Virus record (IMG/VR): IMGVR_UViG_3300042691_030980
Span: 1-32,853 of that record
Direction: 5' to 3' (one strand)
Length of the DNA: 32,853 nt
Source of the DNA: a virus
The position numbers and the translations under genes were made by a program. Each line of letters opens with the position of its first letter. Positions within the stretch are counted from its first letter, which is position 1. The notes under the pieces were generated by a model. The model ran no database searches and was not told the origin of the DNA. It worked only from the letters and a program-made list of their open reading frames with translations. Of the stretch, positions 1,952 through 32,853 are shown one piece after another.

Positions 1952-2340
1952 ATAGAATTATTCGCACAGCCGAAAAGATGCGCACTATTCTTCGTGCAAT
2001 AGAAATTGGCGCAACCCATCGTATTGCGGCAATGAGTGCTGGCGTGTCCGAGCGCACGCTTAAGCAGTGGACTGACGAAGATCCCGAGTTTCGTGAGCAA
2101 GTTGACATTGCCGAAAGCAAATCTGCCATTCGCTTGTTGGCCAAAGTTGAGCAAGCAGCAAACAATGGCGATTGGAAAGCCGCTGCGTGGAAACTTGAAC
2201 GTCGATTCCCACAGGAGTATGGCAAGCAAATCATAGAGCAAACAGGACAGGTGGACTATGTCATCGACATCGGCATCAGAAAAGAGGATCGTCCGGCACT
2301 CAACGATGACGGAGCCTCAACGAAACTTTTGGTTGAGTGA
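1948..2340 (+). CDS. Terminase small subunit (putative)
   Basis: The 130-residue protein has an N-terminal helix-turn-helix: A-I-E-I-G-A-T-H-R-I-A-A-M-S-A-G-V-S followed by E-R-T-L-K-Q-W. Next comes F-R-E-Q-V-D-I-A-E-S and a helical segment with A-A-W-K-L-E-R-R-F-P-Q-E-Y-G, a sequence typical of phage small terminase or Nu1-like DNA-recognition subunits. It would bind the packaging site and recruit the large subunit. It lies directly upstream of, and overlaps, the large terminase gene. The overlap depends on the start chosen for the large subunit. Function is inferred from the motif and position. Confidence 0.8.
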   Translation: MNRIIRTAEKMRTILRAIEIGATHRIAAMSAGVSERTLKQWTDEDPEFREQVDIAESKSAIRLLAKVEQAANNGDWKAAAWKLERRFPQEYGKQIIEQTGQVDYVIDIGIRKEDRPALNDDGASTKLLVE

Positions 2341-3445
2341 CGCAAAGTTTCGTTTGTTTGTGGGTGGCGTTGGCAGCGGAAAGACGCGCGCTGGAATCGT
2401 AGAGTGTTTTCGACAAGAGCCACAAAGCAATGGTATGGTCGTTGCGCCAACATATACAATGCTTCGTGATGCTACACTGCGTACATTTTTGGAGTTGGCA
2501 GAAGAGGCCAACATTCTACAATCATTCAAAGAGGGCACGATGATTGCCAAGCTACACGGCAATCGTACTGTGTTATTTCGCTCTGCAGACGATCCGAACA
2601 AACTTCGTGGCCCCAACATTGGATGGTTTATGATGGATGAGGCGGCGCTACTTGACGAAATCGTATGGAACATCATGATTGGCCGTTTACGTGAAAAGCC
2701 ATCGCGAGGATGGGCAGTTACCACGCCTCGTGGTAAAAATTGGCTTTATCATAAGTTCACTAAAAGTGCCGGATATGAAATCATCAAGTCGTCAAGTAAA
2801 GACAATCCCTACCTACCAGAGGGGTTTGTTGAGTCTCTTGAGCAATCCTACACAGCGGAGTGGCGTGCGCAAGAAATTGAAGGCGACTTTCTCGATCCTG
2901 CTGGTGCGCTATTTCGACGTGAATACTTCAAACTCATTGACCGAGCGCCAGAAGGGTTGCAGTGGCATCGTTATTGGGACTTGGCGGCGTCAGTGCGACA
3001 GACGGCAGACTACACAGCATCAGTTGCAGTTGCAATGGACGATTCAGGTAATGTATTCTTGAAAGAGGGAATTCACTTACGCGCAGAATGGCCTGATGTG
3101 CAGAAGTTGATGATACGCACCATGTTGCAAGATGCATCCGTGTTTCACTACATCGAAAAGGCGTTGCACGGAATAGCAGCACTACAGGAACTGATGCGTG
3201 TCAAAGAAATAGCACATATATCCATTAACGACGTACAGCCTCAGGGTGACAAAGTGCAACGTGCGATGGCTTGGGCAGCGCGCGCAGAACAAGGCAAGGT
3301 GCATATCGTAAATGGGGAATGGGTATCAGAGTTTCTTGACGAAGTATCCATGTTCCCACACGGAAAGCACGATGACTATGTTGACAGCGTGTCTGGATCT
3401 ATGCCGATGCTAGGAAGTGCAGGAAGGTTGCTGCTATGGGATTAA
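2306..3445 (+). CDS. terL: Terminase large subunit (DNA packaging ATPase/nuclease)
   Basis: This is the packaging motor subunit. Walker A is GGVGSGKT at about residues 20-27, Walker B is IGWFMMDEA at about 105-113, and a coupling-motif-like VTTPRGKNW lies near 138-146. The RNase H-like nuclease domain begins at RYWDLAAS, with the first catalytic Asp in WDLA, and ends with HDDYVDSVSG, which supplies a second acidic cluster. The 379-residue length is slightly short but within the range for compact phage terminases. I chose the ATG at 2306 because homologues normally begin a few residues before the T-x-x-Q/P-x-x-F segment. An in-frame ATG at 2258 would add 16 residues. The gene overlaps the small subunit at its start and the portal at its end. 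Confidence 0.93.
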   Translation: MTEPQRNFWLSDAKFRLFVGGVGSGKTRAGIVECFRQEPQSNGMVVAPTYTMLRDATLRTFLELAEEANILQSFKEGTMIAKLHGNRTVLFRSADDPNKLRGPNIGWFMMDEAALLDEIVWNIMIGRLREKPSRGWAVTTPRGKNWLYHKFTKSAGYEIIKSSSKDNPYLPEGFVESLEQSYTAEWRAQEIEGDFLDPAGALFRREYFKLIDRAPEGLQWHRYWDLAASVRQTADYTASVAVAMDDSGNVFLKEGIHLRAEWPDVQKLMIRTMLQDASVFHYIEKALHGIAALQELMRVKEIAHISINDVQPQGDKVQRAMAWAARAEQGKVHIVNGEWVSEFLDEVSMFPHGKHDDYVDSVSGSMPMLGSAGRLLLWD

Positions 3446-22091: not shown

Positions 22092-22892
22092 CTACGTCAT
22101 GCAGTGGCCTGACTCGCAAGCCATGCCCTCGTCAAACATATCAACGGTTTCAACAAATTGAAAGTCGCGCATCGGTCGCTGTTTGCCCCATAGATACACA
22201 TCATCCTTGTCGCCATACTTTTTGCGCTTCTGATTGATAGTATCTTCAAGCTCAATCACGCGCTTGAACAAGTGCGGATAAAGCCGACGCAACTCCATCC
22301 AGTCCTTATCGGCTTTGTATGGACAGAACCAACATGATGATTTTGGGGCCGGAGGCAATCCTGCGCCAACAATGATTTGCTGACATGCAATGCGATTCAA
22401 GCGCAGGTCAACAAGTGGATATTCTTTGTACGCGTACACGTCACGCTCAGGATCGTCGGTACGCATGCGATGAATCTCATCAGTGCTGATGCCTACACCG
22501 ATTGGCTGTCGATTCTGCTTAGTGGCACCGGCGTTGTCGCGCATCCATCGGTCAATCACCTTGACCTTCCATTTGCTTGTGCAGTTGCGCCATGATGGGC
22601 CGCCGCCTTTCATGTGTACCGGAATAGCAATATCGTTGCGATCTTCAACGAGTGCCTCGTATAGCGTCTGTGCGCTTGTTGGCTTTCGCTTCCATTGAAC
22701 CTCAACAAAGTTCAGTCCATATTGCAATGCAAATGGCTTCGCAATGTTTTCAATGTACTCCATTGTGCCTGGATTTTCACTATCACTACCAACATTGGCA
22801 AACACAAAGTGTGTGTACGGCAGGATTTGTTGTGCTGACAATACCATGACCGCAACAGACTGCACGCCACCGCCAAAACTAAATACTCTCAT
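22092..22892 (-). CDS. PP-loop ATPase / PAPS-reductase-like protein
   Basis: The start at 22892 has AGAGGG five bases upstream; a longer frame start at 22943 runs through a strong hairpin and is less likely. The 266-residue product opens with a PP-loop (S-F-G-G-G-V-Q-S-V-A), the nucleotide-binding signature of PAPS reductases, DndC and tRNA thiolation enzymes. Later come R-N-C-T (C104), G-V-G-I-S-T-D-E-I-H-R-M-R and a C-W-F-C-P-Y pair (C187, C190), giving three Cys that could ligate an Fe-S cluster. Phage members of this group have no settled role. Sulfur transfer to nucleic acid is one possibility. There is no DndD/E-like partner here, so DNA phosphorothioation is not supported. Confidence 0.8.
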   Translation of the reverse strand: MRVFSFGGGVQSVAVMVLSAQQILPYTHFVFANVGSDSENPGTMEYIENIAKPFALQYGLNFVEVQWKRKPTSAQTLYEALVEDRNDIAIPVHMKGGGPSWRNCTSKWKVKVIDRWMRDNAGATKQNRQPIGVGISTDEIHRMRTDDPERDVYAYKEYPLVDLRLNRIACQQIIVGAGLPPAPKSSCWFCPYKADKDWMELRRLYPHLFKRVIELEDTINQKRKKYGDKDDVYLWGKQRPMRDFQFVETVDMFDEGMACESGHCMT

Positions 22893-22914
22893 ATCGCCCT
22901 CTGTTATACTAGAA

Positions 22915-22943
22915 GTGTGGCCACAATTCCCCTGTGGCCACAC
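22915..22943 (-). other. Perfect 11-bp intergenic hairpin upstream of the PP-loop gene
   Basis: GTGTGGCCACA, a seven-base spacer, then TGTGGCCACAC forms a perfect stem between the tandem RHH gene (ending 22947) and the PP-loop gene's ribosome site (22897-22902). No U-run follows on the minus-strand transcript, so it is not a standard intrinsic terminator. It may be an mRNA-stability or processing element, or an operator. Confidence 0.6.
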
Positions 22944-25981: not shown

Positions 25982-26016
25982 TCTTATTCACCTCCCTTCT
26001 GTGTGTCGTTGACGTC

Positions 26017-26045
26017 ATTGTATTACAAACAAACAAGTATGTCAA
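26017..26045 (-). promoter_or_regulatory. Sigma-70-type promoter for the leftward replication operon
   Basis: On the minus strand TTGACA (26045-26040) is separated by exactly 17 bp from TACAAT (26022-26017). The -35 hexamer is perfect and the -10 matches five of six positions. Transcription should start near 26010 and reach the first ATG at 25981 after about 30 bases that contain GGGAGG. A 27-bp repeat copy touches the -35 box on its upstream side, a natural place for an activator or repressor. Confidence 0.85.
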
Positions 26046-26208
26046 GCGCGCGGAACCGAACGGCGAGTAGAAGGCTAATTTGCGTGAGCTCGGTACGGCG
26101 AGCTGAGCTTCCGGCATCTGCGTGGCCACACACCAGCACGCACGCGCGCGGAACCGCGTGACGAGTAGAGTAATTGCATGCGCGCGCGGAACCGAAGCGC
26201 GAGTAGAA
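26046..26208. repeat. Three 27-bp bipartite direct repeats upstream of the promoter
   Basis: Copies lie at 26046-26072, 26144-26170 and 26182-26208. Each has a constant 13-bp left arm (GCGCGCGGAACCG), five variable bases (AACGG, CGTGA, AAGCG) and a constant right arm CGAGTAGA. Copy one abuts the -35 box at 26040-26045. The spacing (98 and 38 bp) is irregular, so this is not a CRISPR array. A regulator- or recombinase-binding site is the most economical reading. Confidence 0.75.
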
Positions 26209-26698
26209 TCCCCGAGAGGGGTTGTCGGCGCGGTCGGGCCCACATGCAATTCTGCGCTGCGTTTTTGGCGTGCCATGCAGCGATACCGCGCCGGCCATGC
26301 GATCGGCGCAACGTATCACCAGTGACGGCCGGCCGGCGTCATAGATCGCAGCGCCGGCCGTATGTTGTCTCGTGTGTTGTGTGTTATCGGCGCACACTCC
26401 GCGCCGTGTCCGATGCGTTGACAATGTGACAATACGCCGTATTTGCGTTATACGGCCATTTTGCGACACGATACACGGCCGGCAGGTATACTCATACCAC
26501 TACGCAACGCGCAACGCCGTAAAATGGCGCTATGTTGCAAATACGGCCATGTGTGTATTTACGCGCCGTCATACCGGCCGGCGTGTCGCGCCGTCTCGTG
26601 TGCACTGGTGATACGGCCCGCGCTGCGATCTGCATACAATGAGACGGCCGGCGCGGTATCATACCGGCCGGCCGTGTGTGCGTTATTCGATTATGTGA
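26209..26698. other. Non-coding or decayed, palindrome-rich segment
   Basis: No gene here is convincing. The segment starts with CCCCGAGAGGGG (26210-26221), a hairpin with a GAGA loop. It contains GGCCGGCC at 26327 and 26666, repeated ATACGGCCAT words (26450-26560) and CACTGGTGATACGGC at about 26607. A minus-strand frame from 26469 encodes a fragment Q-H-T-A-G-A-A-I-Y-D-A-G that resembles the N-terminus of the 28.8-29.3 kb gene, but it has no ribosome site and its downstream part looks random. I read that part as a relic of another family member. Confidence 0.5.
26331..26359. repeat. Imperfect-hairpin repeat word, copy 1 (non-coding)
   Basis: GGCCGGCG and CGCCGGCC arms (8 bp, perfect) flank TCATAGATCGCAG. 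Read on the minus strand in one frame it encodes A-G-A-A-I-Y-D-A-G, the same peptide found in the intact genes at 27.0 kb and, in part, 27.66 and 29.2 kb. Here it lies outside any convincing gene. Confidence 0.75.
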
Positions 26699-26764
26699 TT
26701 ATTGACGCCGGCGACGCGTCGCATTCCAGATGATATACGCCGTGATGAGTGCGATAAGTTCCAT
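26699..26764 (-). CDS. 21-residue membrane-like peptide, last gene of the accessory operon
   Basis: An ATG one base after the stop of the preceding gene opens a 21-codon frame. It has a hydrophobic stretch E-L-I-A-L-I-T-A-Y-I-I-W followed by N-A-T and four consecutive Arg residues. This is the pattern of a minimal single-span membrane peptide with a cytoplasmic basic end. A GAAAG-type sequence within the upstream gene's end could serve as ribosome site. The last bases share GACGCCGGCGACGCG with the 29.4-29.6 kb gene. The short length keeps confidence modest. Confidence 0.4.
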   Translation of the reverse strand: MELIALITAYIIWNATRRRRQ

Positions 26765-26765
26765 A

Positions 26766-27287
26766 CTATTGCACACTTTCAAGTAATTCACACACGCGCG
26801 CATATGCAGTATTTAACTCTTTCAACGCGTCATTTAACGCCGTGGCGATCTTTTCGCGTTGTTCAATATGCGTGTCACCGTCGTATGCGTTGCCACGCCG
26901 TGGCATATCCGGCAATTTATTCGACAATTCGTATAGGCGATCGCCGATATACTGCGATTGTTGCCACGTCTCGCGCATATCGGCGCGCAACGTCTCATTT
27001 ACATACCATTGCAACCGGTATACAACGTCTCCGGCGTCATAGATCGCAGCGCCGGCCCGCGCAGCATACACGCGCAACGCAACCGGCGTATGTATCATAT
27101 CTGCACTCAACCGCGTCGAAAGGCCTTGCAAGTACGCAGCGGTATCATGCACACTGCCACAAAACACATAATCACTAAAATAGTCATTCTCACCAGTGAT
27201 CTTATACCGGCCGTCGCATCGTGTCGCGTTGACGTGGAGTAATTCGCATTTTGCAGCGATATACTTGCGCGCATCTTTTGCATTCAT
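26766..27287 (-). CDS. Accessory operon protein A (unknown, helical, AGAAIYDAG motif)
   Basis: This is a 173-residue protein of unknown family. It has an N-terminal alpha-beta part with two Cys (C14 and C24), then D-Y-F-S-D-Y-V-F-C-G, then the motif A-G-A-A-I-Y-D-A-G-D encoded by repeat-word copy 2, and a long charged C-terminal helix (E-K-I-A-T-A-L-N-D-A-L-K-E-L-N). The start follows AAAGGCGA located in the final codons of the upstream gene. It lacks the M-K-G gene end of its neighbours, consistent with being next to last in the operon. Codon choice (many ATA, GCG, GCC) differs from the replication genes to its left. Confidence 0.65.
   Translation of the reverse strand: MNAKDARKYIAAKCELLHVNATRCDGRYKITGENDYFSDYVFCGSVHDTAAYLQGLSTRLSADMIHTPVALRVYAARAGAAIYDAGDVVYRLQWYVNETLRADMRETWQQSQYIGDRLYELSNKLPDMPRRGNAYDGDTHIEQREKIATALNDALKELNTAYARVCELLESVQ
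27031..27057. repeat. Repeat word, copy 2 (inside accessory gene A)
   Basis: CCGGCGTCATAGATCGCAG followed by CGCCGGCC. It is identical to copy 1 over 27 bases and in the same orientation. It encodes A-G-A-A-I-Y-D-A-G in the frame of the 26766-27287 gene. Confidence 0.8.
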
Positions 27288-27289
27288 GG

Positions 27290-27772
27290 CTATTTGTCGC
27301 CTTTCATCGAATTGTATACATTCACTGCATACGCATAAATAGAAATGAGACTTGCATATTGAATAATCGGCAATGACACGGTATTTGCGTATTGCTTATA
27401 TGTTGCGTATTGATCGCCGTCGCTCATATGCGCAGCGTACAGAAATATAACGCCGGCCGTCTCGCGCATCATATATGTATACTGCAAATAGAATGCGCGG
27501 TACTCCGATGTATTTGTATACCGGCGATAAATCGGCGCGCCGGTGTCGCGCGTTGCAATCAATAACCGGCCGGCCGTCGTGAATGCGTCAACACTTGCAA
27601 TCATGGCGTTAATGTAACTGGTGATATCTGCGCGCGTGTCGTCGCATAATCGGCCGTGGCCGGCGTCATAGATCGCGCTATTCGCTGCGCTATAGTGACG
27701 ATCGGCGTCATTATGCGCCGTGTATGCAGCGTTAATAGCGCGCCGGTATTGTGTAATTGTCTCGTGTGTCAT
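27290..27772 (-). CDS. Accessory operon protein B (unknown, Tyr/Ala-rich helical)
   Basis: The 160-residue protein starts at an ATG overlapping the upstream stop (TAATG), with AAAGGC in the final codons of that gene as ribosome site. It is Tyr-, Ala- and Thr-rich and helical. It carries A-N-S-A-I-Y-D-A-G-H near residue 30 (repeat-word copy 3), G-A-P-I-Y-R-R-Y-T near 78, and ends N-S-M-K-G-D-K. The G-A-x-I-Y-R-R-Y element also occurs in accessory gene D, so the two are probably related. No catalytic pattern is seen. The third quarter is hydrophobic enough to pack as a helical bundle but not clearly transmembrane. Confidence 0.65.
   Translation of the reverse strand: MTHETITQYRRAINAAYTAHNDADRHYSAANSAIYDAGHGRLCDDTRADITSYINAMIASVDAFTTAGRLLIATRDTGAPIYRRYTNTSEYRAFYLQYTYMMRETAGVIFLYAAHMSDGDQYATYKQYANTVSLPIIQYASLISIYAYAVNVYNSMKGDK
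27658..27676. repeat. Repeat word, copy 3 (half, inside accessory gene B)
   Basis: GGCCGGCGTCATAGATCGC matches the left arm and spacer of copies 1 and 2, but the right CGCCGGCC arm is absent. It is read in the same frame and encodes A-I-Y-D-A-G. Confidence 0.75.
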
Positions 27773-28302
27773 TATTTGTTATTGCCTTTCAAGTATGCTG
27801 CATGTTGTCGCCATGTATAGTACGAATGCGCATATGATAAATAGGATTGTATCGAATGACGCCTTTCTGTTATTGCGTACCACTTGCGTTTATACTCCGT
27901 CATATTTGCGTCATACTCACAATGACGGCCGGCGCGGTGTAGTGCCTTATGACGGCGCATAAATACGCCTTCAATAGTACTTATTTGCCGATGCGTTACA
28001 TACTCACCAGCACCATATAACCATTTCGTATACATGCGCGACGCCGTGGCCGTGTCATCTGCAGCGCGCGCATACTCATCACTTTCGACGGCGTCAACGC
28101 GCGCGGTATTATCGGCGTGAGTCGCATCGTATGCATGTAGCCATTGCGTGATAGTGCTGAGTATAGCGAATTGATCGCCGGTATCATGCGTCGTATGCGA
28201 GACGGCGGCGGCCATTAACTCATTTACGCGCGCCATGTGTGCATAAAAGTTCGCGCAGCGCAATGCATCGGTGTCAATTCGCGTGTGTCGCAATGTAATC
28301 AC
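27772..28302 (-). CDS. Accessory operon protein C (unknown, family paralogue)
   Basis: The 176-residue protein uses a GTG start immediately after the upstream TAA, with AAAGGCGA as ribosome site. It is helical and His/Tyr/Arg-rich. The segment G-E-Y-V-T-H-R-Q-I-S-T-I-E-G-V-F-M-R-R-H near 100-120 aligns with G-E-Y-V-K-Y-R-N-V-T-N-A-Q-L-S-A-M-R-D-N in protein D, which supports common ancestry. It ends Y-L-K-G-N-N-K, again placing AAAGGC before the next gene. Function is unknown. The middle is acidic (several Asp) and the C-terminus basic. Confidence 0.65.
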   Translation of the reverse strand: MITLRHTRIDTDALRCANFYAHMARVNELMAAAVSHTTHDTGDQFAILSTITQWLHAYDATHADNTARVDAVESDEYARAADDTATASRMYTKWLYGAGEYVTHRQISTIEGVFMRRHKALHRAGRHCEYDANMTEYKRKWYAITERRHSIQSYLSYAHSYYTWRQHAAYLKGNNK

Positions 28303-28794
28303 TTATTCGCCTTTCATCGTTAATAGAATTGTCTCGACGTCGCGCAACGTCTCATTAAGTGTATGCAGTGGCGATATATCGGCCGTGGATTGATAGCGCT
28401 GCATCATGGCGTCATATCGCGTCATAAGATCGCGTATTTGCTGGATTGTACTATCAATACCGGCGCCGGTAACTCGCAGTGATGACGCCATGGCCGACAA
28501 TTGATTATTTGCGCATACCGCGGTATGCAGTACCGTTGCATTGTCGCGCATGGCCGATAACTGCGCATTGGTGACGTTGCGATATTTTACATATTCACCA
28601 TGCGCCGGCGCACGTAGCACACTCCGCGCCGTGGCCGGCGTGTCAATATAGAACTTAACGCGTCGCGCGCATGATACCTCGTGATCAGCCATAAGTGACG
28701 CGGTGATATATCGCCGATAAATGGCGCCGGCCGTCGTGTGTAGTACGGCCGCGGCCGTGTATGCGTCTCGTGTCGTCTCGTGTGTAGTGCTCAA
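28303..28794 (-). CDS. Accessory operon protein D (unknown, family paralogue)
   Basis: The 163-residue protein probably starts at TTG (28794), seven bases after AAAGGCGGG in the end of the upstream gene; no ATG lies nearby. It aligns with protein E along much of its length: L-H-T-T-A-G-A-I-Y-R-R-Y against L-H-T-A-G-A-A-I-Y-T-R-Y, then A-x-R-V-x-x-Y-I, a K-Y ... M-R-D-N-A-T-V-L-H-T-A centre, and S-P-L-H-T-L-N-E-T-L ... M-K-G against R-P-L-Y-E-L-C-D-T-L ... M-K-G. The coding DNA contains a 16-bp perfect palindrome at 28513-28528 and a 14-bp one at 28458-28471. Function is unknown. Confidence 0.68.
   Translation of the reverse strand: MSTTHETTRDAYTAAAVLHTTAGAIYRRYITASLMADHEVSCARRVKFYIDTPATARSVLRAPAHGEYVKYRNVTNAQLSAMRDNATVLHTAVCANNQLSAMASSLRVTGAGIDSTIQQIRDLMTRYDAMMQRYQSTADISPLHTLNETLRDVETILLTMKGE
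28513..28528. repeat. 16-bp perfect palindrome inside accessory gene D
   Basis: GCATACCGCGGTATGC reads identically on both strands. It lies within coding sequence and is one of several long palindromes in this operon, together with the 14-bp TACCGGCGCCGGTA at 28458-28471. Confidence 0.85.
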
Positions 28795-28795
28795 C

Positions 28796-29269
28796 TTAAT
28801 ACCCGCCTTTCATATAGTCGACGTCATTTAATAGCGCCGTCAACGTGTCGCACAATTCGTATAACGGCCGTGTGTCACATACGCCGTGTAGTGTGTGCGC
28901 GTACTCATCGCGGCGCATAATGACGGCGTGTCGCATCTGCGCAACGTATATACCGGCGTCAACTGGTGAGACGGCGCCATATACTGCGCGCTGCATAAGA
29001 TCCATACCGGCGCCGGCCGTGTATTGTAATATGTATGCGTTATGCATGAGTACGGCGCGATCGTGTGCGGTATAGTGTGCGTATTTGCGCATGGCCTTAT
29101 GTGACGGCAATTTACCGCGATATAGTCCAACCGGCGCCCAAGTGATATACGCGCCTACGCGCTGCGCTGCGCTACTCCACTTAATAGCCTTATGCGTTGC
29201 GCCGGCGTATCGTGTATAGATCGCAGCGCCGGCCGTGTGTAGTGTCTCTTGCATGTTTATTACGTGCAC
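28796..29269 (-). CDS. Accessory operon protein E (unknown, family paralogue)
   Basis: The 157-residue protein starts at GTG (29269), six bases after AAAGGCGA; an ATG five codons later (29254) is the alternative. Near the N-terminus it has H-T-A-G-A-A-I-Y-T-R-Y-A-G, encoded by repeat-word copy 4, then W-S-S-A-A-Q-R-V-G-A-Y-I, a K-Y-A-H-Y-T-A-H-D-R segment, and the end D-V-D-Y-M-K-G-G-Y. It is the closest relative of protein D by eye. The helical pattern suggests a four-helix-bundle-like protein, but no known family is evident. Confidence 0.68.
   Translation of the reverse strand: MHVINMQETLHTAGAAIYTRYAGATHKAIKWSSAAQRVGAYITWAPVGLYRGKLPSHKAMRKYAHYTAHDRAVLMHNAYILQYTAGAGMDLMQRAVYGAVSPVDAGIYVAQMRHAVIMRRDEYAHTLHGVCDTRPLYELCDTLTALLNDVDYMKGGY
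29201..29234. repeat. Repeat word, copy 4 (inside accessory gene E)
   Basis: GCCGGCG and CGCCGGCC arms flank a longer spacer (TATCGTGTATAGATCGCAG) than in copies 1 and 2. It is read in the same frame and gives A-G-A-A-I-Y-T-R-Y-A-G. Confidence 0.7.
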
Positions 29270-29335
29270 TGTAATTCGCCTTTCATTGTGTTGAGTAGAT
29301 CAATTCGTCTCATCATTGCCACGGCGTGGCATATG
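29270..29335 (-). pseudogene. Orphan family C-terminus downstream of truncated protein F
   Basis: The minus-strand frame ending in M-R-R-I-D-L-L-N-T-M-K-G-E-L-Q-C-T carries the family's M-K-G-E gene end and provides the AAAGGCGA ribosome site for protein E. It has no start signal of its own. It is best read as the separated 3' end of the protein F gene, or of a deleted gene between F and E. Its stop overlaps the GTG start region of E. Confidence 0.4.
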
Positions 29336-29359
29336 GCGGGGGCCGTGCGTATGTATGTA

Positions 29360-29599
29360 TCATGTGTCACCCGTCCGCGCGAAAATCGTAGGCATGAGTA
29401 ATAGAGTGAGATCGCACGCGCCGGCCGGCGTATCGGCAACGCTGCGTAATGCGTCGATTATGACGCCGGCGACGCGCTGCATGATGCGCGCTGCATTCGA
29501 TGCATACAATACCGCGCCGGCCACGCGCCGGCCGGCCATGATATCGGCCGTCATATGCGCGTCATATGCGCGCGTTAACTCATCGCTTAGCATGCTCAT
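29360..29599 (-). CDS. Accessory operon protein F (unknown, probably C-terminally truncated)
   Basis: The 79-residue protein starts at 29599, seven bases after GAAAGGCC in the end of the upstream gene; an in-frame ATG two codons later is possible. It has A-G-A-V-L-Y-A-S-N-A-A-R-I, resembling the A-G-A-A-I-Y motif of its neighbours, and M-Q-R-V-A-G-V-I-I-D-A-L. It is half the usual length. Beyond its stop another frame encodes M-M-R-R-I-D-L-L-N-T-M-K-G-E-L, which looks like the lost family C-terminus. A GGGGG run at 29338-29342, rare in this region, lies between the two. A frameshift or deletion is the likely cause. Confidence 0.5.
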   Translation of the reverse strand: MSMLSDELTRAYDAHMTADIMAGRRVAGAVLYASNAARIMQRVAGVIIDALRSVADTPAGACDLTLLLMPTIFARTGDT

Positions 29600-29600
29600 G

Positions 29601-29858
29601 CTATAGGCCTTTCGTGTATGCGTACAAAGATCGAACTGCGTGCATGTACTCACATGCTGCGCCGATCCAACCGCGCAGCGTTGACGCCGTCGCCATGGCA
29701 TGGCGTGCATACTCCACGCGCATACGGCCGGCGTGTGCGATATCGGCCACGGATAACGGCCGGCAAATATCGGCGCTGCATACCGGCCTACTATAGGCCT
29801 TTTGCTCCAGTGATACCGGCGCCGTATCGGCCGGCCGGCGTGTCGTGTCGTGTGTCAT
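29601..29858 (-). CDS. Accessory operon protein G (unknown, short)
   Basis: The 85-residue protein starts at the ATG at 29858, with AAAGGCGA seven bases upstream. The N-terminal part (T-H-D-T-T-R-R-P-A-D-T-A-P) is encoded by a 21-bp sequence duplicated just upstream (29816-29836 and 29889-29909). The rest is helical and ends Y-T-K-G-L, which supplies the ribosome site for protein F. In another frame near 29790 the DNA carries a second gene-end-like sequence (AAAAGGCCTATAG), suggesting assembly by duplication of operon junctions. Coding status is less certain than for the larger genes. Confidence 0.45.
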   Translation of the reverse strand: MTHDTTRRPADTAPVSLEQKAYSRPVCSADICRPLSVADIAHAGRMRVEYARHAMATASTLRGWIGAACEYMHAVRSLYAYTKGL

Positions 29859-29909
29859 CGTGTCGCCTTTCATGAGTGTGTGTTAAGGCCGGCGCCGTAT
29901 CGGCCGGCC
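29816..29909. repeat. 21-bp perfect direct repeat, two copies 73 bp apart
   Basis: Copies lie at 29816-29836 and 29889-29909 and run from CCGGCGCCG to CGGCCGGCC. Each contains the GGCCGGCC octamer and is followed by GTGTCGT-type words. One copy is inside the 29601-29858 gene and the other in the 70-base gap before it, which indicates a local tandem duplication. Confidence 0.8.
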
Positions 29910-29929
29910 GTGTCGTCTCGTGTCGTGTA

Positions 29930-30340
29930 CTATCGCGCGTTGTATGCAGCGTGTGCGCTAGGCCATGCAGCGTAGTGCGATACGACGCCGGCGCCGTCAT
30001 ACATGTATGTGTCTACTATCTCCGCGCCGGCCGGCGTCAGTGTCGAGTACTCCACGCCGTGTATAGCCGCGGCGTTAATGAGCGTCTCGACGCGCGCCAC
30101 GTTCATACCGTCGACGTTATCCAACTCCATAACGATATAGTCAGCATATGACCAACCGGCCGTAGTGTTGACGTCGTATCCGTCCTGCGCGTCCTGAATA
30201 GTTTGCGCAACGTACTCACAAAGGATATTCAAGGCCGCCTTCGTTTGCGCCGGCGTGGCCGTCTCGTGTGCAGTGATGCGCGCGTGTGCTGTTTGCATCT
30301 GCAGCGCGATAGCCAATTGTACTGTTTGTGTCATTGCCAT
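29930..30340 (-). CDS. Accessory operon protein H (promoter-proximal, unknown)
   Basis: The 136-residue protein is the first gene after the promoter at 30412-30441. Its ATG follows ATGAAAGGCAAGGCGAAACA, a doubled ribosome site. The sequence is Ala/Thr-rich and helical (V-Q-L-A-I-A-L-Q-M-Q-T-A-H-A-R-I at the N-terminus), more acidic than the other family members, and contains T-T-A-G-W-S-Y-A-D-Y-I and T-Y-M-Y-D-G-A-G-V-V. The loose A-G-x-x-Y-x-D resemblance may link it to the others but is weak. It ends without the M-K-G terminus. No function can be assigned. Confidence 0.62.
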   Translation of the reverse strand: MAMTQTVQLAIALQMQTAHARITAHETATPAQTKAALNILCEYVAQTIQDAQDGYDVNTTAGWSYADYIVMELDNVDGMNVARVETLINAAAIHGVEYSTLTPAGAEIVDTYMYDGAGVVSHYAAWPSAHAAYNAR

Positions 30341-30411
30341 TGTTTCGCCTTGCCTTTCATGCGTGGCCGGTATGTCCGGCGTGTCGTGTCGCGTCTCATG
30401 CGCGATATTCG

Positions 30412-30441
30412 ATTATAGGCGCATTTATATGTATGTGTCAA
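30412..30441 (-). promoter_or_regulatory. Sigma-70-type promoter for the accessory operon
   Basis: On the minus strand a perfect TTGACA (30441-30436), an 18-bp spacer and a perfect TATAAT (30417-30412) point at the accessory operon. The start of transcription would be near 30405, about 65 bases before the first ATG at 30340. Two perfect hexamers imply strong expression by host RNA polymerase without a phage factor. Confidence 0.87.
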
Positions 30442-31208
30442 GTGGCGCAACGCATCAATATTTATATGTGTGTCGTGTGGATTGTCGGCGTCATTCTATG
30501 CAATGCAGATATGACGGTGTCGGGTGGGGGGTGTCGCATCTGCCACGGCGCGCGCCGGCCTTTCGTTGCGTATACGCTGCATCACACGCATGCATCTATA
30601 CACGGCGCGCGTCTCGTGTCGGCCACGTATGCAGCGTATACATATATAGATGCATCACCGGCTACGCATGCATCTATGTATTGCGCCCGATCGGGCAGCG
30701 CATCGGCCATTCAGTGACACGCCGGCCGGCCTTCATATAGTCGCGTGCGCAGCGCATCGGCCACGGCGTCGCGTGTCATCGGCGCATCGCCGGCCATGCA
30801 TCGGCGCGCGTGTGCAGTGTGTCGGCGTCGACGCATCGGCGCGCGTGTGCACTGGTGAGACGGCGCCGGTATGGCAAAAACGCGGAGAGGCGGTAGGGGT
30901 AGGCATCCACTCACTCGCAAATCCCCATTTCATGCCAAAAAGAAAACCCGCATCGCATCGCATCCCAACCAACAACCCACATCATTATCAGTATGCATGG
31001 TCAATAAAAACACACATCCCACCAGGTGCGCGGTACCTGATGGGATATAGCGTGTGTCCGGATGGAGCGTGACCGATATGGGAAAGGCGTACCATATCAG
31101 TCGCGAATACAAGTGTAGTGAGTGCGTCATACACCGGTATTGGGATTGATTATAGCACAAAGCGTATGATAGATTTGATGTAAGGGGAAGTAGCAGAGGG
31201 AGTGGTGT
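30442..31208. other. Long intergenic region between divergent accessory and lysis units
   Basis: I find no convincing gene. It contains a set of mutually exclusive inverted repeats at 30570-30677, a 12-bp palindrome GCCCGATCGGGC at 30685-30696, GGCCGGCC at 30724, an 11-bp inverted repeat with one mismatch at 31017-31027/31035-31045, and another (10 bp, one mismatch) at 31072-31081/31092-31101. The palindrome-rich composition ends near 30870 and typical phage composition follows. A short minus-strand frame (30711-30797, 28 codons) and a plus-strand one (30932-31072) lack ribosome sites. A promoter for the lysis genes is expected near 31140-31170, but only weak hexamers are visible. Confidence 0.55.
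30570..30677. repeat. Interlocked inverted repeats (pseudoknot or switch topology)
   Basis: Stem 1 pairs GTATACGCTGCAT (30570-30582) with ATGCAGCGTATAC (30629-30641), 13 bp perfect. Stem 2 pairs ATGCATCTATA (30590-30600) with TATAGATGCAT (30645-30655), 11 bp perfect. The 3' arm of stem 2 can instead pair with ATGCATCTAT at 30668-30677 as a local hairpin. The order 1-2-1'-2' is an H-type pseudoknot arrangement, with an alternative exclusive hairpin. Confidence 0.75.
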
Positions 31209-31709
31209 ATGAGTGGAAGTGATCGAGGGGTGTTCAAGGTTGTGAATTGGCCTGCCAAAAACTATCATAAGCGACGGCAGATGCCAAGGGTGATAGTATT
31301 GCACCACACTGGCGGAAGTGGGAATGTGGAGAATGAGGTGCAGTACCTTGCTGATAACAAGCCAGGGGTATCGGTGCATGTGGTGATTGCGAAAGATGGG
31401 ACTAGATACCGCATGGTGAATGACGAGCATGTAGCGTATCACTGTGGGTACTCAAAGGTAGGGAGTCTTGGTCGGCCGAATGAAGTAAGTTTAGGAATTG
31501 AGTTAATCAACACTGGAAACAAAAAAGAGTTAGATCCATGGCCGAACGAACAGATTGTGTCATGTGTTGAGCAGGTGTATGAGTGGACGCAGAAGTATGA
31601 GATTGAGATGATTACGTCGCATGCGGGGATTGACACGATGGGGAAGTACGATCCATACAAGTTTCCGTGGCAGTTGTTTTACCGACTTTTGGGGGAGAGT
31701 GAGGCATGA
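31209..31709 (+). CDS. N-acetylmuramoyl-L-alanine amidase endolysin (Amidase_2)
   Basis: The 166-residue enzyme has Amidase_2/PGRP features: V-I-V-L-H-H-T-G-G (His at 32-33, first zinc ligand), S-V-H-V-V-I-A-K-D-G-T, A-Y-H-C-G-Y-S, S-L-G-I-E-L-I-N, and S-H-A-G-I-D ... G-K-Y-D-P-Y-K-F-P-W with the second His (138) and the Asp that complete the zinc site. There is no signal peptide or separate cell-wall-binding domain, so release should depend on the adjacent holin genes. AGGGAG lies six to seven bases before the ATG. The final codons overlap the next gene by four bases. Confidence 0.92.
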   Translation: MSGSDRGVFKVVNWPAKNYHKRRQMPRVIVLHHTGGSGNVENEVQYLADNKPGVSVHVVIAKDGTRYRMVNDEHVAYHCGYSKVGSLGRPNEVSLGIELINTGNKKELDPWPNEQIVSCVEQVYEWTQKYEIEMITSHAGIDTMGKYDPYKFPWQLFYRLLGESEA

Positions 31710-32196: not shown

Positions 32197-32199
32197 ATC

Positions 32200-32302
32200 T
32201 ATTGCAATTTTTGCTATAGAAATAATTGCTATAGCAATTTTTGCAATACTTTTTCGGTCTGCTATTGCAATTTTTGCTATAGAGCTATTGCAATTTTTGC
32301 TA
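32200..32302. repeat. Iteron cluster GCAATTTTTGC, four copies, before dnaN
   Basis: The core GCAATTTTTGC is found at 32204-32214, 32234-32244, 32267-32277 and 32290-32300, at 30, 33 and 23-base intervals, mostly within TATTGCAATTTTTGCTATAG. A purine-rich ACCATATAAAGAAAG tract follows to about 32327. Core and tract recur, inverted, inside the initiator gene at 21735-21834. This looks like an origin with an AT-rich unwinding element. Confidence 0.78.
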
Positions 32303-32435: not shown

Positions 32436-32853
32436 ATGGAAGTATACGTTTACGTAGAACGAATGCGCTACGCACTTGGTATTCTCAGTCGCGTAGTAAA
32501 GTCACACACAACACAGCCAATCCTCGGGCAGATTCATTTCTCAATTGATAATGAATCTACGCTGACTGCAACAGCCACGGATCTCATCACCCAAGTGCAA
32601 ATGCATATTCCGCTGGTGCATTCGTATGATGGCGAGCCATGCGGGTTTACGTTGCCAGCCAAAACCATCAAGGATCTTGTGGCCAATCTGCCACTTGAAA
32701 AGATGTGCATCAAGATTGACGCCAATGCCACGATGGCCAAGATTATCTGTGGATCGTCGGTTAGTGAAGTCGTCACCATAAATCCTGATGATTTCCCGAT
32801 GGCTCCGATTGCCGTAAAACCGGAAACGGCATTGTTTACCGAGGTTGGCAAGG
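32436..32853 (+). CDS. dnaN: DNA polymerase III beta sliding clamp (3' end beyond the window)
   Basis: The ATG at 32436 has GAAAGG seven bases upstream and opens a frame that runs off the window. The first 139 residues match the DnaN N-terminal clamp domain: L-G-I-L-S-R-V-V-K-S-H-T-T-Q-P-I-L-G, then L-T-A-T-A-T-D-L-I-T-Q-V-Q, F-T-L-P-A-K-T-I-K-D-L-V-A-N-L-P, and a segment leading to I-N-P-D-D-F-P-M-A-P. The clamp tethers the replicative polymerase to DNA. Phage-encoded bacterial-type clamps are uncommon but known. Placement beside an iteron cluster suggests a replication unit continuing to the right. Confidence 0.88.
   Translation, partial: MEVYVYVERMRYALGILSRVVKSHTTQPILGQIHFSIDNESTLTATATDLITQVQMHIPLVHSYDGEPCGFTLPAKTIKDLVANLPLEKMCIKIDANATMAKIICGSSVSEVVTINPDDFPMAPIAVKPETALFTEVGK

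Follow-up and report, generated by a model that had tools for sequence, protein, structure and literature searches.

Private DNA word vocabularies in an exchangeable early-gene cassette of a phage clade

Cryptically simple or satellite-derived low-complexity DNA, composed of a scrambled subset of short motifs, is found mainly in eukaryotic genomes. In phages, hypervariable early or accessory loci form host-takeover and anti-defence islands, and at simple-sequence contingency loci single genes are switched by one tract. HIP1 and the alternate HIPs of cyanobacteria are genome-wide octamers tied to methyltransferases (PMC4390886). Here we describe a 4.6-kb early-gene cassette with a restricted set of short words in a virus record of 32,853 bases (IMG/VR record IMGVR_UViG_3300042691_030980, hereafter the window). 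The cassette lies in the interval that separates the core early operon, with its promoter-like site, from the rightward endolysin gene at 31209. All sequences compared were metagenomic contigs.

26209 to 30870, no strand assigned: private-vocabulary early-gene cassette (GGCCGGCC, GCCGGC, CATATG and GTGTCG words), from word counts and a composition scan

The cassette resembles the HIPs in that short GC-rich palindromic words occur far above expectation and that the words can differ between genomes. It differs in that the words are confined mostly to one locus, come as families, and are mostly non-palindromic in related phages. With cryptic simplicity it shares a short-motif subset, near which these motifs also form true tandem arrays; here, in contrast, the DNA belongs to a phage, holds open-frame genes with normal Shine-Dalgarno (SD) sequences, and stands at one exchangeable locus with lineage-private words over kilobases. 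A fixed position, swapped content and small fast-evolving genes behind strong promoters are as in phage accessory loci, for which we know of no cassette-specific, frame-ignoring DNA vocabulary. Slippage-prone tandem arrays recall contingency loci, but here whole multi-kilobase cassettes are concerned. A diversity-generating retroelement would entail a reverse transcriptase, template and variable repeats, and A-to-N changes; the word set extends into spacers and shows no A-specificity. No description of such a locus was found in the literature, of which coverage was partial, and the HIP work was the sole near neighbour. The word excess, flagged in the initial annotation as a candidate undescribed system, looks like an undescribed phenomenon, and the provisionally new element is a vocabulary bound to one locus, private to each lineage and blind to frame, in a cassette that is exchanged.

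The borders of the cassette were set by eye before the statistics, and an unbiased 4-mer scan of the genome in 1.5-kb scan windows agreed with them. Every outlier, defined as more than 5 median absolute deviations (MAD) from the genome norm, started at 26001-29751, in the cassette or overlapping its edge; the block is indeed unlike the flanking phage DNA. Within the window the octamer GGCCGGCC occurs only at 26327, 26666, 27568, 29530, 29829, 29902 and 30724. Counts of the other words noted as abundant, for the cassette and for the other 27.9 kb, were 40 and 11 (GCCGGC), 21 and 14 (GCGCGC), and 7 and 17 (CATATG), to which CGGCCG was added with 33 and 5. Depletion of GGG/CCC was about 3-fold, short of the near absence that had been claimed, with 15 both-strand counts, several of them in 30520-30535.

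The initial annotation described the block as palindrome-saturated. The 6-mer palindromes of the window cassette numbered 210, in huge excess over the 73±9 of a mononucleotide model but only slightly above the 171±15 and 182±13 of order-1 and order-2 Markov models, and the 8-mer palindromes numbered 61 against 52±8 under a dinucleotide model. All the self-complementary dinucleotides were high (AT 1.81, CG 1.73, GC 1.58, TA 1.34). As the palindromes mostly follow this dinucleotide content, the anomaly is a restricted vocabulary with palindromes as its by-product, and palindromes as a selected class were ruled out by the order-1 and order-2 controls. The discrete block and its word excess thus stand, while palindromes are not its essence: the words of the relatives are mostly non-palindromic, and some of their cassettes contain fewer palindromes than the dinucleotide model gives. 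The suggested likeness to HIP1 did not hold, since GGCCGGCC is not iterated over the genome and GCCGGC is concentrated in the cassette; HIP membership was ruled out by this concentration and by palindrome counts barely beyond dinucleotide or order-2 expectation.

Relatives were gathered by terminase searches, and the locus was anchored by the endolysin gene. A low-complexity cassette was present at the same position in all ten contigs spanning the locus, the window and nine others (designated by G numbers). The word sets were private, or common only to the nearest relative: GTTGCCG/TTGCTCG in G002; AGCCTCAGCC/TAGCCTTGGC over 9.6 kb in G003; CTGTGCTGTG, TGTGCCTG and GGCGCGCC in G013; CACCCCGGCC in G016 and G010; GGGGGG or ATGCCG, with TTTCAC/GTGAAA, in G019 and G004; and GTCGTGGTG and GGTGTCG words in G005 and G021. 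Much of the vocabulary was common within each of three pairs, G010/G016, G004/G019 and G005/G021. By Jensen-Shannon comparison of 5-mer spectra, cassettes differed by 0.08-0.42 and backbones by 0.01-0.09. The 4-mer outlier scan marked the cassette, and the cassette only, in nine of the ten phages, G004 falling below the threshold; no outlier windows were observed for three control phages. In all ten cassettes the 8-mer entropy was below that of an order-3 Markov model (z −4 to −12), indicating motif redundancy.

The vocabulary spans genes and spacers and all codon phases, beyond codon usage. For this test, words were learned from spacers only, with the spacer/gene split taken from our own gene calls. 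In the window, spacer-learned words were found at 168 per kb in coding sequence (CDS) against 21 in the backbone, and were distributed over the codon phases as 193/184/197. Their number in CDS was 574, against 254±19 in synonymous shuffles that preserved codon usage (z 17). The z values over synonymous shuffles were 24 for G003, 15 for G013, 9.9 for G010, 8.5 for G016, 6.9 for G019 and 4.8 for G004. Across cassettes, spacer words were enriched in CDS by a factor of about 3-10 relative to backbone and of 1.7-2.4 relative to synonymous shuffles. The vocabularies differ between cassettes while some of the proteins are homologous, and related cassettes share vocabulary. Protein H of the window cassette aligned with protein G003_3 (35% over 51 aa, E 1.7e-4), and the aligned region of G003_3 was covered to 68% by words of its own cassette and to 11% by those of the window; a weak link (21-26%) was observed between H and the G013_8/G016_3/G010_3/L144 family by alignment. 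The amino-acid bias also tracks the cassette, being A/T/R/Y in the window, A/K/E/Y in G003 and T/A/N in G002.

Whole cassettes replace one another between phages whose backbones are nearly identical. G013 and G016 have flanks 97-98% identical, with an abrupt switch to a 6.7-kb mainly leftward cassette in G013 and a 4.0-kb rightward cassette in G016 (breakpoints L101:4877/L100:12320 and L101:8874/L100:18984). The two cassettes are nearly unrelated, with one clearly homologous gene (G013_8/G016_3, 56% in protein) and a 54-nt stretch in common. Such clean replacement was seen in relatives and not for the window's own cassette.

Both indels and substitutions were raised between one pair of sister cassettes. 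Contig L144, a sister of G016 found via the flank repeat described below, provided this mutation comparison, which concerns one pair of relatives and not the window itself; a second sister pair was sought in the viral scans and not found. The backbones differed by 1.4% substitutions and 0.2 indels per kb, the cassette segments by 5.8-11% substitutions and 3.8-13 indels per kb. Six of the nine cassette indels of at least 3 nt were repeat-like, and at one site (TTCGG)n was long in one sister and short in the other, with an adjoining array of a different unit. Gene 3 was replaced between the two cassettes. The words showed no clear gain in conservation over non-word DNA (4.1 against 4.8% in spacers), as expected of a mutational footprint, and strong single-site selection is thereby disfavoured. 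Tandem arrays of the cassettes' own words were present in relatives, including (TGCTG)16, (GTGTGCCT)n and (AGCCTC)18, and (TTCGG)n and other arrays were read directly from the sequence. In the window, repeats of 16-27 nt numbered 10 against 1-4 Markov-expected, and G002 and G013 showed strong excess; the repeats of the window were largely accounted for by an order-4/5 word model, which they exceeded only at lengths of 16 nt or more. A local duplication was also observed:

29816 to 29955, no strand assigned: 73-nt tandem duplication inside the cassette

Taken together, the tandem arrays of the relatives, the raised L144/G016 divergence and the hardly raised conservation of the words favour recurrent expansion and self-copying. 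The block may be an allele of an exchangeable early-gene locus that is hypervariable and repeatedly rewritten as repeats expand and short tracts are self-copied, an explanation to which we give about an even chance of being correct. The vocabulary would then be the footprint of local, continuing repeat expansion and contraction by replication slippage, together with short-tract self-copying. Selection would filter the rewritten DNA for open reading frames, leaving each cassette as cryptically simple DNA in its own dialect, and homologous recombination in the flanks would swap cassettes between phages. The small early proteins might be fast-evolving host-takeover or counter-defence factors, with the locus as their innovation ground. 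For a slippage-type mechanism, the setting would be new but the kind of process a known one.

Several observations weigh against this explanation. Shared 8-mers in the window were about 4 at 8-80 nt and 2.2-2.6 beyond, against about 0.27 in the backbone, and were thus nearly flat over 5 kb; few tandem arrays are left in the window. Local slippage alone is therefore insufficient, and something further is required, be it self-copying across the whole cassette, origin from an old satellite or another process. Strong local excess of word sharing was found in G002, G003, G005, G013 and G016, and a long-range plateau in most cassettes. In G002 and G013, words chosen after looking keep to one strand and reverse near promoters, a behaviour that plain slippage does not predict. 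Part of the excess L144/G016 divergence may be import from other lineages instead of mutation, and no enzyme for the rewriting process was identified. We are doubtful of the stronger proposal that the clade has a dedicated, locus-confined diversification process copying the cassette's own short words, by template switching or targeted slippage. If true, it would be a word-based analogue of a diversity-generating system, with a private dialect for each lineage, a stream of new early proteins and flanks for exchange.

The words could alternatively be selected for recognition, the cassette offering many sites, spread even through genes, for a host or phage DNA- or RNA-binding protein in decoy, centromere, silencing or partition functions. 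Retention of one vocabulary by related cassettes across large divergence is in line with this idea, as is the single strand followed by the words of several cassettes relative to transcription. Furthermore, exact canonical parS TGTTTCACGTGAAACA occurs in or beside the cassettes of G019 (5 sites) and G004 (3 sites), with related TTTCAC/GTGAAA words; recognisable protein-binding words therefore belong to the vocabulary at least in that lineage, where the sites are a possible array for host ParB recruitment, partition or decoy. No exact parS was found in the other eight phages, nor in the window even with 2 mismatches allowed, so that the decoy sites suggested by the initial annotation are backed in two relatives only. 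Most vocabularies are overlapping families of 4-6 nt words with no single fixed-length site, the words of the sister cassettes are hardly more conserved than other DNA, and ten vocabularies on similar backbones would need a target that changed constantly. We regard selected recognition as unlikely; the parS-bearing relatives nevertheless give a concrete way into a binding-site role. A locus-specific mutator or RNA-level constraint of another kind, such as biased origin repair or avoidance of endoribonuclease sites or terminators, might restrict the words where early and late transcription diverge, as they do at the cassette. The depletion of AG/CT in most cassettes and the strand flip near promoters suit it, but a shared constraint should give a shared vocabulary and the vocabularies are mostly private, which makes it quite unlikely.

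L102:7628, 7924, 8920, 9560 and 10735: exact parS sites TGTTTCACGTGAAACA, mostly in spacers of cassette genes
L019:12571, 13578 and 14016: exact parS sites TGTTTCACGTGAAACA, mostly in spacers of cassette genes

Whole cassettes might instead be imported from donors whose genomes carry unusual signatures, which would agree with their exchange as units (G013/G016) and with composition unlike the backbone. Over-representation of TpA is rare in cellular genomes, yet its rho was 1.34 in the window and 1.49 in G003. Many different unusual donors would be needed, homologous genes occur in different vocabularies, a DNA search of annotated phage records with the window cassette gave nothing similar, and in about half of the cases the backbone nearest, or nearly nearest, to a cassette was its own. 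The donor signature proposed initially is disfavoured for a single donor, which does not account for ten different vocabularies on similar or near-identical backbones, and import in general seems to us very unlikely. The pattern cautions that composition-based calls of foreign origin can mislead. Most improbable is a HIP1-like drive confined to the cassette, in which methylation-linked mismatch repair makes and maintains GC-rich palindromes (model of PMC4390886). The words of the window are GC-rich palindromes whether they lie in genes or in spacers, and cyanobacteria have alternate HIPs with matching methyltransferases (PMC4390886); against this, GGCCGGCC does not occur outside the cassette, the words of most relatives are non-palindromic, and no methyltransferase was found among the window early genes scanned, a subset of the phage open reading frames.

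If the pattern holds, this phage locus evolves new genes within DNA whose words are determined at the level of the DNA itself, independently of frame, and are inherited with the cassette, and gene birth from low-complexity DNA would be directly observable in a virus. The question raised is what process or selection imposes a private vocabulary on several kilobases and leaves neighbouring DNA untouched.

The window cassette contains eight genes, where about nine had been proposed, all on the minus strand and behind a strong promoter as predicted, with a perfect sigma-70 match at −35 and −10. Each gene is preceded by a GAAAGG SD sequence. On the minus strand, eight of the nine GAAAGG copies are just upstream of a gene start, and the opposite strand has 1 copy. 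The eight genes look genuine.

30412 to 30441, minus strand: cassette operon promoter, TTGACA-18-TATAAT (12/12 sigma-70 match, 18-nt spacer)
29930 to 30340, minus strand: gene A, 136 aa, GAAAGG SD at 30358, no family found
29601 to 29858, minus strand: gene B, 85 aa, GAAAGG SD at 29871
29360 to 29599, minus strand: gene C, 79 aa, GAAAGG SD at 29613
28796 to 29269, minus strand: gene D, 157 aa, predicted four-helix bundle, paralogue of E
28303 to 28794, minus strand: gene E, 163 aa, paralogue of D
27772 to 28302, minus strand: gene F, 176 aa, GAAAGG SD at 28315
27290 to 27772, minus strand: gene G, 160 aa, GAAAGG SD at 27790
26766 to 27287, minus strand: gene H, 173 aa, N-terminal domain common to proteins of other cassettes

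The proteins are rich in Ala, Thr and Tyr (15.7, 9.2 and 7.4%), as had been noted, and could be assigned to no known family, none of the eight giving a Pfam match above the cut-off or a convincing PHROG match. Paralogy judged by eye was confirmed for D and E (29% over 148 aa, E 9e-9), while the likeness of B and C was not supported. Protein D was predicted to fold as a helical bundle of four long helices and one short (predicted local distance difference test score, pLDDT, 88), without significant match in PDB and BFVD structure searches. For protein H, an N-terminal alpha-beta3-alpha domain was predicted with moderate confidence, followed by low-confidence helices, and a PDB structure search gave no significant match. 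Scans of close relatives with protein H and a neighbouring early protein as queries gave no matches. Among proteins of other cassettes, one in G010/G016 showed weak clamp-like (phrog_947) and RusA-like (phrog_3007) profile matches. A small sigma-like protein is encoded in the G021 and G005 cassettes (L103:2795-3277 and L022:3683-4246), that of G021 matching sigma-70 region 4 (Pfam 1.9e-10) and its G005 counterpart being judged by eye only.

The closest cultured phages are 25-33% identical. A host was sought and not found, apart from one weak terminase relative in a Methylovulum metagenome-assembled genome (MAG). More distant phages with the same endolysin (L110-L138) had no vocabulary cassette adjoining the endolysin gene. 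At another locus, adjoining a nuclease-like gene, word-iterated spacers were observed at L137:480-830 and L130:1350-1700 (ATACACGT and GTACACAGG), and from these the word iteration may be wider than this clade.

In the window, late genes run rightward (terminase at 2258-3445, portal, major capsid) and the early operon leftward at about 19.5-26 kb (replication protein O-like, DnaC/IstB-like ATPase, PAPS-reductase-like protein). The PAPS-reductase-like gene of this core operon is at 22092-22943 (phrog_424, 1.8e-35). The early-side flank of the cassettes is marked by the repeat CGCGCGRAWYYN6CGAGTAGWA. An exact scan of IMG/VR for this repeat gave at least five contigs, all from the same phage clade, a lower bound because the scan missed at least G016 and the window. 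In the window three copies directly adjoin the core early promoter on its upstream side, a placement suggestive of operator sites.

26017 to 26045, minus strand: promoter-like site of the core early operon, 11/12 match
26047 to 26070, plus strand: flank repeat copy 1, CGCGCGRAWYYN6CGAGTAG, upstream of the core early promoter
26145 to 26168, plus strand: flank repeat copy 2, CGCGCGRAWYYN6CGAGTAG
26183 to 26206, plus strand: flank repeat copy 3, CGCGCGRAWYYN6CGAGTAG

On the other side of the endolysin gene, at 32436-32852, the N-terminal domain of a DNA polymerase III beta clamp (Pfam 3.7e-11) is encoded in a frame open at the window end. Between the endolysin and clamp genes, about 5 copies of the 15-nt CTATAGCAATTTTTG were found at 32199-32282, possibly origin iterons or operators. 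A similar array is present at L100:9119-9154, and L005/L006 match the window over this stretch at about 81%.

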